A stretch of 64,000 nucleotides of DNA. Source: Mesotoga prima MesG1.Ag.4.2 (lineage in GTDB: Bacteria > Thermotogota > Thermotogae > Petrotogales > Kosmotogaceae). The translations under genes were made by a program, and so were the position numbers. Within the stretch, counting starts at the first letter, position 1, and the number at the start of each line of letters is the position of its first letter. The stretch spans positions 2,046,001 to 2,110,000 of the forward strand of contig NC_017934.1 in the NCBI RefSeq assembly GCF_000147715.2, read 5' to 3'. Below, piece after piece: positions 11,566 through 40,837 of the stretch. Below the pieces are notes generated by a model. That model worked only from the letters and a program-made list of their open reading frames with translations, ran no database searches and was not told the DNA's origin.

Positions 11566-12807
11566 TTAAGGTGTCCACTTCGTGTATATCATAGGTTGCT
11601 GAACAGGGCCTGCCACAAAACGCTCTGTCAAAGTCCATGACGTAGTCGAAGGACTTCCACCCTTTATTGCCGTGTAACACTTGTACAACAATGCGGGCAG
11701 GGTGTCTATGGATTTGCTAGAGGCGTAGGATGTGACTTCTGACCAGCCTGTGCCGGTAAAGGAAGAGAGTTTCTGCAGGAAGTCACCCGACCACTCAACA
11801 TACATGTCTGAAGGATTGTAATCCGCCGCGCCACCTGCGCTGTCCCAGTCGGGATAAGCCCCCTTGGTAGCGGTAGTTGTAGTTATTATTATTTCGACAT
11901 TTGGAGGGATAACGCCGGCGGATTTCAGACCCTCAAGCCAGCTACCAGAATGGCAGGATTCGATGATTATGCAGAACTTCACGCCAGAGTGTTCGAGTAT
12001 ATAAGTTCTCAACTGATTTGCGAAGAAAGTCGTTCCCCCGAGATTCATGAGGTTCGTGTTTCCATGCGCAATAAAGTACAAAGTCATATAGTTTACCTTT
12101 TCAGTTGTCAGTAGCTCATCCATTGCGGCTAGAACGGCAATCCAGTTCGGAGCAGCTGCGCCCGAAACATACTTCACGTCACGCACTCTGTCAGTTCCCA
12201 TTATTGTCTTGAAAGCGTTGGACATAAGATCCCGTACATCTCGAGCCTCCGCGTAAAGATTCTGTGTGGGAGTGAGTCCACTGGTAATTACGGCCCCCTT
12301 TATCCTGAAAAACACTTGTGTCCAGTCAACAACAGTTCCAGTGATTATTTCCCTGACATATTTCCACTTGTCCCAAATAACTGCTTTAGCATAGAGATTC
12401 CGATCGCTCAAAGGTGAAACAATGTTTCCGTTAATCGTTGGCCAGCCTTCGGTGTCTTCTTCGAAGATAATCTCGTTTGTCTTTGACACAACGACGAGTT
12501 TCCCAGGGTGATCGTAGAATGCACCGGGAGCTTCATCCAGATAGAAGAAATAACCTGATTCATTTATGCCTTGCAACTGATACTGGAGTTCCTGGCCTCC
12601 AGCCGACTCGGATCCGATGATATCGTCCTGATCGACTTCTCCCAGATATAGGCCGGTAAATGGGCCTTCCGGTTCTCCTTCCTCCTCTATGAACTGAATG
12701 AACTTTCTTGTGGCAGCTACAACAGGGTCTTTTGGAATACAGGAAGATATCATGAGCATTGCAACGAGAGCCGCAACAATAACTATTGATACTCTTTTCA
12801 GCCGCAT
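11566..12807 (-). CDS. Caspase-like (clan CD) lipoprotein
   Basis: A 413-residue lipoprotein: signal MRLKRVSIVIVAALVAMLMI with lipobox SSC, so it is probably anchored on the cell surface side. The central region carries a clan CD cysteine peptidase dyad: His in LYFIAHGNT (about 230) and Cys in IIIESCHSGSWL (about 268). This is the same H-G ... E-S-C-x-S-G pattern seen in legumain/caspase-type peptidases. The preceding MTLYF and FCIIIE strands fit the alpha/beta fold. The substrate is unknown. GGAAGGTG precedes the ATG and a strong terminator follows. The neighbouring exported gene at 13113 has its own terminator, so the two are probably separate units. Confidence 0.75.
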   Translation of the reverse strand: MRLKRVSIVIVAALVAMLMISSCIPKDPVVAATRKFIQFIEEEGEPEGPFTGLYLGEVDQDDIIGSESAGGQELQYQLQGINESGYFFYLDEAPGAFYDHPGKLVVVSKTNEIIFEEDTEGWPTINGNIVSPLSDRNLYAKAVIWDKWKYVREIITGTVVDWTQVFFRIKGAVITSGLTPTQNLYAEARDVRDLMSNAFKTIMGTDRVRDVKYVSGAAAPNWIAVLAAMDELLTTEKVNYMTLYFIAHGNTNLMNLGGTTFFANQLRTYILEHSGVKFCIIIESCHSGSWLEGLKSAGVIPPNVEIIITTTTATKGAYPDWDSAGGAADYNPSDMYVEWSGDFLQKLSSFTGTGWSEVTSYASSKSIDTLPALLYKCYTAIKGGSPSTTSWTLTERFVAGPVQQPMIYTKWTP

Positions 12808-38962: not shown

Positions 38963-40837
38963 CTATTTTTGATCGGGCGACATTTCTTGACCAGATTCTT
39001 CAGTTATTACCAAGCCTATTTTGAAGGCATCAACCTGTTCCCTTCTTTTTTCGCCTTCAAAATAGAGAAATTCAAGCATAGAATCTCCTGAGTCTGTGGG
39101 TTTTAATCGAAACACTGAATACCTTACACCCATATACTCTACTTCAGTGATGTCACCAACAGGTTCTACTGCCGAATATGAAGAAAGTTGCCATTCGCAA
39201 TCTTCTTCGTTGCCTTTCTTCAATCTAACCAAGACCGTTTGATCGATCCTTATTGAAATCGTTCTTCCATAGTCGGAATCCTGAACAAAAACATATTCCC
39301 TAACGGGTTCTGCAACGACTATTGTAGCCTCAAAAGTTCTCTCGGGAGCGACATCTTCCCACAGACTGCCATAATCAAACCTAAGCCTAGCCTGCCCGTA
39401 ATTCATGCCTTCAAAGTAGAAGGTTTGTGCAACTTTCCCGGCTGAATACGGCGATGGCTCCGTAATTTTCACTTCATTTTCTCTTGGCTGTCGGAGTACT
39501 TCAGGAGTGGTGGCAGAGATACGCCATCTTAATCCGGAATCAATAGGGGAATCGAGAATAACCTCTATAGGTTCATTGAGACCGACTACAATAGTTTTTC
39601 CCACATCTGAAGAATCAATAATTATCGGATCTATGTTGGGTTTTTCTACATTAATAGAAAATGAAGACGTCCTTATTGAAGTTTCCTCCCACAATGAACC
39701 AAAGGAAAACTCAATGGAAGACTTCCCAGATCCAACTACCCGGAAATCGAAGACGTCGCGTCCACCGCCTGATTCCTTAAGCTCTTCGTAGTATGGATCC
39801 GAAATCAGTCTTATAGAGTTTTCGTCTAAACTCTTGACTTTCCAGAAGTAGCCTGCACCTCGATTTGAAGGAAGCTTCACGGAAAAATCATCTCCAACGT
39901 GAAGTTCGTGAACTTTCTCAAGATCTTCCCATCCGAATACCATATCTCCTGGAACTTCCGACATGTCATCAAGATTCATTTCCTGTTGTCCTTGATGACC
40001 AAAGTTTTCTTCGGCTCTTTGAAGGAAATCTTCCACAATGGTTTTGAAGGCTTTCTTCTCTTCAAACATAGGTAGATGTCCGCTGTTCATGAACGTTACA
40101 AATTCTATATTTGGAGACCCCTCTTGAAACGTTAAGAGATTCTTGGCGCCGGGAAAGCTGTTTAATCCAGAGCAGATAAGAATCGGTAGGTTAATGTCTA
40201 AAAGTCCTGAGGAAAAATCATGTCCTCTAAGAATTCCACTAATGAAGGTAGGGGTTTCTCCCCAAAACAGGTTATAGATTTCCTCGTTTATAATATCTCT
40301 GGAAAGTACCGGCTTCAGTTCAGATGTGGGACCATCCCCAAACAAATAATAGAACTTGTCGAAACTCTGAGACGATTCACCATCGGCTAGATCGGATAAT
40401 GCGGAATCGATTGCAGGGAGGTTCAATCTTGGATTTATCATTACAAGACTGAGCAGTCCTTCAGGATTTGTAAGGGCAAATCCAACGGCGATTGCTGATC
40501 CAAATCCATGGCCAAGAAGATGAAAAGAGTTTATTTCGAGCGAAAAAATAAGTGAAGCGAGTTCAGCAACAAAGTATTGAAAATCAATAGCTACATCCGA
40601 GTGATTCTTTGAACTCCCACTTTCAAGCTGATCGTATCTCAAAGTCTTCCTTCCACTGAGTATTCCTTTCATATAAGAACTGCTGAAGCCTGGACCGTCG
40701 CCAATCAGGATAACCACTTCTCCATCGGCTTCTTCGACTTCATAATGGATCTCGTTTCCGCTAAATAGAATCTGCCCTTCATAAGCTAGACAGCTCGCTG
40801 AAAAAGCTAATATTATGATCACAAAGAAAGTACGCAA
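38963..40837 (-). CDS. Exported alpha/beta hydrolase-like protein fused to three chagasin-like domains
   Basis: About 624 residues from the TTG at 40837 (AGGAGAG upstream), giving signal peptide LRTFFVIIILAFSASCLAYE; a longer frame to 41062 would run into the next gene. Residues about 20-270 follow the proline iminopeptidase-type hydrolase fold (LIGDGPGFSSSY; MNSGHLPMFEE). The nucleophile elbow reads G-H-G-F-G, with Gly replacing Ser, and the acid is not evident. Residues about 290-620 contain three repeats resembling I42 chagasin inhibitors, e.g. LPSNRGAGYFWKV with FSFGSLWEE, then LDSPIDSGLRWRIS with FDYGSLWED. It probably binds rather than cleaves, perhaps inhibiting cysteine peptidases. 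Confidence 0.75.
   Translation of the reverse strand: MRTFFVIIILAFSASCLAYEGQILFSGNEIHYEVEEADGEVVILIGDGPGFSSSYMKGILSGRKTLRYDQLESGSSKNHSDVAIDFQYFVAELASLIFSLEINSFHLLGHGFGSAIAVGFALTNPEGLLSLVMINPRLNLPAIDSALSDLADGESSQSFDKFYYLFGDGPTSELKPVLSRDIINEEIYNLFWGETPTFISGILRGHDFSSGLLDINLPILICSGLNSFPGAKNLLTFQEGSPNIEFVTFMNSGHLPMFEEKKAFKTIVEDFLQRAEENFGHQGQQEMNLDDMSEVPGDMVFGWEDLEKVHELHVGDDFSVKLPSNRGAGYFWKVKSLDENSIRLISDPYYEELKESGGGRDVFDFRVVGSGKSSIEFSFGSLWEETSIRTSSFSINVEKPNIDPIIIDSSDVGKTIVVGLNEPIEVILDSPIDSGLRWRISATTPEVLRQPRENEVKITEPSPYSAGKVAQTFYFEGMNYGQARLRFDYGSLWEDVAPERTFEATIVVAEPVREYVFVQDSDYGRTISIRIDQTVLVRLKKGNEEDCEWQLSSYSAVEPVGDITEVEYMGVRYSVFRLKPTDSGDSMLEFLYFEGEKRREQVDAFKIGLVITEESGQEMSPDQK

Follow-up and report, generated by a model that had tools for sequence, protein, structure and literature searches.

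A gene of Mesotoga prima raises the question of what a secreted protein may do when its alpha/beta-hydrolase domain carries Gly at the position of the nucleophile and is followed by domains resembling inhibitors of cysteine peptidases. The gene is located in the window, the stretch of 64,000 nucleotides analysed as a whole. The original prediction proposed a secreted inhibitor or receptor built on a dead hydrolase. The parts of the protein are known, their combination is new, and within the phylum genomes searched the fusion has been found only in the genus Mesotoga. A search of the open-licence literature retrieved nothing on a hydrolase-I42 fusion architecture. Bacterial I42 proteins have, to our knowledge, received little study, and for most of them the natural target is not known. 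The fusion probably works by binding and not by cutting, because an enzyme-shaped but dead domain and inhibitor-like domains have been preserved in evolution. As a genus-wide union of a pseudo-peptidase with an inhibitor fold of altered loops, it represents a testable case of two families shifting together from chemistry to binding.

Gene and domain organization

The anatomy, a fixed pseudo-peptidase followed by an array of chagasin folds, is secure (Table 1). An AGGAG motif lies about 10 bases upstream of the TTG start; a promoter or terminator signal was rejected, the counts being not above those in shuffled sequences. The N-termini of the orthologs are hydrophobic too, and a canonical lipobox is absent from the fusion by eye. 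Pfam matched the window protein to Inhibitor_I42 (E=1.4e-33; 115.4 bits, cut-off 27.2), with two stretches passing, and to Abhydrolase_6 (E=1.9e-6; 29.1 bits, cut-off 26.3). The structure model of the full-length protein is of moderate quality (pLDDT 69.3, pTM 0.53).

Table 1. Parts of the fusion gene, with positions counted from the first nucleotide of the window.
Feature	Residues	Position	Strand	Description	Basis
Whole gene	624 aa	38963..40837	minus	TTG start at 40837, stop at 38963	
Signal peptide, predicted Sec	1-18	40784..40837	minus	LRTFFVIIILAFSASCLA	cleavage site by eye
Alpha/beta-hydrolase domain	25-276	40010..40765	minus	proline-iminopeptidase-like, dead by sequence	Pfam, PDB phmmer, VIA-align
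Nucleophile position	Gly111	40505..40507	minus	in GHGFG (residues 109-113)	ortholog alignment
Catalytic acid position	Ser227	40157..40159	minus		alignment
Catalytic histidine position	His254	40076..40078	minus	kept	alignment
I42 domain 1	303-402	39632..39931	minus	L2 SNRGAGYFW, L4 GGG, L6 SLW	Pfam and Foldseek
I42 domain 2	403-511	39305..39631	minus	L6 Trp retained; this lineage has lost the L2 motif	PF09394
I42 domain 3	508-615	38993..39316	minus	chagasin fold without chagasin loop motifs; fastest evolving domain	profiles, own model

The hydrolase domain

The best relatives found by phmmer in the PDB are proline iminopeptidases and an L-proline amide hydrolase (7a6g, E=1.5e-13), with the cysteine-peptidase inhibitor 2wgn as a weaker match. 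VIA-align of the full model gave Z scores of 20.8 to 3wmr_A and 20.7 to 3nwo, in rows covering the hydrolase only. The domain shares with the S33 proline iminopeptidases (3nwo, 1mtz; 7a6g) the fold (VIA Z about 20) and the best sequence matches. Unlike them, the fusion has a signal peptide and I42 domains, Gly in place of the catalytic Ser, Ser or Asn in place of the Asp, and an altered HGGPG motif.

The residue differences were read from an alignment in which the 10 fusion domains stood beside 26 further alpha/beta-hydrolase rows of the same set of loci; the short fragment L025_p1 had been dropped before counting. The nucleophile position is occupied by Gly in 10/10 fusions and by Ser in 26/26 other rows. 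The acid position holds Ser in seven fusions and Asn in three, compared with Asp in 21/21 alignable others (five are gapped). The catalytic His is present in 9/10 fusions (Asn in L012) and in all 21 alignable other rows. S33-type paralogs display the oxyanion motif HGGPG; the fusions read GDGPG or similar, with the first two positions changed in every one of the ten. Counted by the Ser-Asp-His triad, Ser is found in 0/10, Asp in 0/10 and His in 9/10 fusions. The genome of the window also encodes an intact S33-type paralog (L102:351-1232) with HGGPG, GQSWG, Asp and His. Judged by its sequence, the hydrolase domain is catalytically dead. Gly for Ser at the G-H-G-F-G elbow, the starting point of the original prediction, is confirmed as Gly111 in 10/10 orthologs and is accompanied by changes in the acid and the oxyanion motif.

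Activity through another nucleophile, e.g. Cys222, is very unlikely. This residue is present in 10/10 fusions and in 0/21 alignable other rows, and the retention of His254 in nine of the ten fusions would favour such a chemistry. However, Cys222 sits in strand 219-224 ahead of the old acid position, away from the elbow, and acid and oxyanion motif are lost. S76, another Ser invariant in the fusions, also occurs in 26/26 other rows. The 31 columns at the four old catalytic motifs have a conservation of 0.84, versus 0.70 elsewhere in the domain, a value equalled in 3/252 circular shifts. This would fit a pocket mouth that is still in use; a folding constraint could have the same effect.

NDRG proteins are non-enzymatic alpha/beta hydrolases. 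The fusion resembles them in having a hydrolase fold without catalysis, and NDRG1, NDRG2 and NDRG3 were among its fold matches (VIA Z 18.6-18.9). The matched proteins are from human and mouse and, unlike the fusion, lack I42 domains.

The chagasin-fold domains

Domains 1 and 2 exceed the Pfam cut-off in the genome of the window, domain 2 with 50.3 bits to PF09394. The window's copy of domain 3 matches I42 only weakly (13.1 bits, E=0.12). Of nine orthologous third domains, eight reach E<=1 against I42, the best at 3.9e-6, and the one in G002 is the only one to pass the Pfam cut-off by itself (27.3 bits). Profile comparisons connect all three domains: domain 3 was related to domains 1 and 2 with probabilities of 97.6% and 97.0%, respectively. 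Foldseek with the whole model, using rows with a target TM of about 0.6 or higher, found EhICP2 (3m86_A, TMt 0.82; matched domain not stated); the top rows were unrelated long chains of low TM (9ijj, 6dms). Since the VIA rows were restricted to the hydrolase, domain 3 was modelled on its own. The model reached a pLDDT of 85.9, and all 11 PDB matches at E<=0.001 were chagasin-family inhibitors. The three chagasin-like repeats, recognized initially from the motifs GAGYFW and SLWE, which are indeed in the sequence, are hence borne out by Pfam for domains 1 and 2 and by profiles and a separate model for domain 3; structure prediction, proposed as a check, gave chagasin-family matches for the whole model and for domain 3 alone. 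A FastTree phylogeny built from 73 I42 domains places those of the fusions together and apart from the others (topology alone), as if they had been tripled in place.

The contact face of chagasin consists of L2 (NPTTG), L4 (GxGG) and L6 (RPW/F) (PMC2607524). L2 is the loop facing the catalytic cysteine of the target. Its motif [ST]TG[YF] occurs in 0/29 fusion domains versus 43/44 other I42 domains of the phylum, where the sole exception reads PATGY. In domain 1, L2 has the pattern S-[NS]-[PR]-G-[AT]-G-Y, with Gly at the position of chagasin Thr31 in 10/10 fusions. Loop length, L4 glycines (GxG) and L6 Trp are retained in this domain, and G327, G329, Y330, W332, G357, G359 and W383 are invariant among the orthologs. 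Domain 2 keeps the L6 Trp; the full RPW is confined to the deep branch. Domain 3 has neither L4 GxGG nor L6 RPW/F, nor any other chagasin loop motif. L2 of the deep branch (L014-L016) reads xGTG in domains 1 and 2 alike, which suggests that the Gly arose early. Likeness to the chagasin/ICP family (MEROPS I42, PF09394; EhICP2 3m86, chagasin 2nnr) extends from fold and Pfam match to the L6 Trp of domains 1 and 2 and the L4 glycines of domain 1. Unlike the family, the fusion has an altered L2 in all 29 domains, and its domains stand three in tandem behind a pseudo-peptidase.

Mutant chagasins illustrate what such changes may cost. Reported for T31A/T32A is a Ki of 1.8 pM with cathepsin L (7.3 for the wild type) and of 1065 pM with cruzipain (7.6 for the wild type), the latter 140 times worse; T31A alone raised the cruzipain Ki about 40-fold, and W93A inhibited cathepsin L about 100-fold more poorly (PMC2607524). 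Domain 1 keeps the equivalent of W93. Inhibition may survive the loss of both Thr residues, since T31A/T32A chagasin still blocks cathepsin L. Inhibition may nevertheless be weak or absent, because the canonical L2 is found in 0/29 domains and T31A alone had its reported effect on cruzipain. From these loops, inhibition by domain 1 appears possible and is not to be assumed, and inhibition by domain 3 appears unlikely. Domain 1 may perhaps mediate a re-tuned interaction with papain-family peptidases. The proposal of a secreted inhibitor therefore stands as regards chagasin fold and signal peptide, and is weakened by the absence of the canonical L2 contact motif.

Distribution and selection

The architecture was detected in 10/10 Mesotoga genomes, with 38-83% identity to the window; among the 101 genomes searched, none outside the genus matched across both halves of the fusion. 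All three repeats are present in 9/10 orthologs, and L016 ends inside domain 3 at a contig end. I42 matches occur in 18/103 genomes of the phylum. In these 103 genomes, I42-bearing open frames from other genera were at most 353 aa long, too short for the fusion. A two-pattern contig scan beyond Thermotogota, which would miss distant cases, yielded 91 stretches with 4 relatives, all Thermotogota. Its named records with the gene are a Mesotoga sp., two Kosmotogaceae MAGs and a Thermotogales MAG.

All four Gly codons (GGA, GGC, GGT, GGG) encode Gly111 among the orthologs. Nei-Gojobori dN/dS between the window and its nearest ortholog, L008, was 0.154 for the hydrolase and 0.137, 0.153 and 0.375 for domains 1, 2 and 3. 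Five more close pairs gave 0.15-0.31 for the hydrolase, 0.10-0.41 for domain 1, 0.11-0.28 for domain 2 and 0.22-0.56 for domain 3. The 27-codon linker reached 1.25 in one pair. Because all four Gly codons are in use and the hydrolase dN/dS is about 0.15, the fusion is, by its codons and substitution rates, a maintained pseudoenzyme under purifying selection and no decaying gene. A gene in decay or an annotation artefact is highly improbable, even though the fusion evolves fast for its surroundings. Compared with L037 across eight neighbouring genes, it has the highest dN (0.091; the next is 0.044) and the highest dN/dS (0.225; the others range from 0.010 to 0.152), and in the subclade loci its identity is about 53%, against mostly 72-96% for its neighbours. 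Against decay, the frame is open in 10/10 genomes spanning the whole identity range, and the dN/dS values of the domains are far below 1. A pseudogene is rejected on the basis of dN/dS.

A GH127 gene adjoins the fusion in six loci (L037-L040, L042, L043). In the stretches read of the deep-branch loci L041 (G007) and L044 (G002), no GH127 match was present, and a role linked to the adjacent GH127 gene was rejected on this ground (G006 was outside the comparison). L044 contains ABC permease matches about 3 kb from the fusion; L041 is devoid of them.

Candidate target peptidases

Chagasin-family inhibitors are described as acting on papain-family C1 peptidases (PMC2607524, PMC2680270). A C1 peptidase of 503 aa is encoded in the genome of the window (G000:C1:2119662-2121173; L099:2162-3673), 33 kb from the fusion. 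It lies about 9.7 kb beyond the window end, on the opposite side of the fusion from the caspase-like lipoprotein of the window. It has a hydrophobic N-terminus, the motifs GSCWSFA, GGHAVTLVGW and IKNSWA with Cys, His and Asn, and a dockerin-like tail slightly under the Pfam cut-off (21.7 vs 22.9 bits). Adjacent to it, L099:3642-4982 encodes a putative lipoprotein of 446 aa, cohesin-like by eye and without a Pfam match.

Relatives of the 503-aa peptidase were found in 9/10 genus genomes. G003, which is 100% complete and contains the fusion, had no match to it, only a weaker C1 match in a 935-aa frame; a C1-family match of some kind exists in 10/10. Fusion and C1 gene lie 28-35 kb apart in three genomes (G000, G004, G009); in G007 the distance is about 339 kb. 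No linkage tighter than about 28 kb was seen, so a C1 target is inferred from family membership. By genus, the co-occurrence of I42 and C1 is not significant (5/6 versus 12/31, Fisher p=0.075); the genome-level p of 4e-6 is inflated by ten genomes of the same genus. The counts were collated by hand.

The original prediction had named the caspase-like lipoprotein (11566-12807) as a conceivable target. Its matches cover 10/10 genus genomes, several as partial or broken frames, and it contains the motifs IAHG and ESCHSG and is presumably located in the envelope as well. Its C13 match is below the Pfam cut-off (19.7 vs 22.8 bits), however, it lies 26 kb from the fusion, and it also occurs in G011, which lacks the fusion. 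As the chagasin family acts on C1 peptidases according to the papers cited above, this suggestion has lost ground, and inhibition of the lipoprotein by the fusion is now hardly credible. The secreted papain-family peptidase 33 kb away is a better candidate target.

Proposed function

The reading favoured here, with a confidence just short of even, is a secreted binding protein in which pseudo-peptidase and chagasin array are organized around the capture of a C1 peptidase. The hydrolase module would no longer cut; its former pocket mouth, where constraint within the domain is strongest, would serve for binding or anchoring. Domain 1 would present a chagasin-type three-loop face with an altered L2 (Gly at the Thr31 equivalent) and, in the cell envelope, bind a C1 peptidase with changed affinity or specificity. 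For domains 2 and 3, the role would chiefly be that of spacers or of secondary contacts. In this way the fusion would hold a secreted cysteine peptidase in check, capture it or keep it in place.

It is also plausible, if somewhat doubtful, that the protein is neither inhibitor nor enzyme and acts as an envelope scaffold or ligand receptor, with the I42 domains as Ig-like spacers. The complete loss of the L2 motif (0/29 vs 43/44) speaks for this, as do domain 3, which combines the lack of any chagasin motif with a dN/dS of 0.22-0.56, and the fusion of I42 to two SBP_bac_3 solute-binding domains elsewhere in the same genome. The strict conservation of the altered L2, the L4 glycines and the L6 Trp in domain 1, however, goes beyond the needs of a spacer, and domain 2 of the deep branch retains RPW. 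A re-tuned peptidase binder is preferred over a scaffold or receptor. An unlikely variant is that both modules have exchanged their warheads for binding; as a receptor or chaperone, the protein would capture or position a secreted cysteine peptidase and leave it active. The dead aminopeptidase pocket would then still hold peptide ends or another ligand, and the chagasin array would have been re-tuned from inhibition to docking.

The SBP_bac_3 protein is encoded at L090:13-1788 (G000:C1, about 2709249-2711024) and consists of two SBP_bac_3 stretches and a canonical C-terminal I42. It resembles the fusion in placing a C-terminal I42 on a protein of ligand-binding type in the same genome, and differs in its solute-binding modules and in its canonical L2 (NGSTGY) and L6 (RRPW). 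I42-bearing frames of similar size (592-616 aa) are present in 8/10 genus genomes, the Pfam architecture being known from L090 only. Canonical-loop I42 proteins of the same genus represent built-in controls for the altered loops of the fusion; the genome of the window also encodes a canonical double-I42 protein of 228 aa (L075). A double-I42 gene is split into short frames in the genome of the window (L100, G000:C1:1939825-1940417); it contains a stop in G003 and is open (260 aa) in G009.
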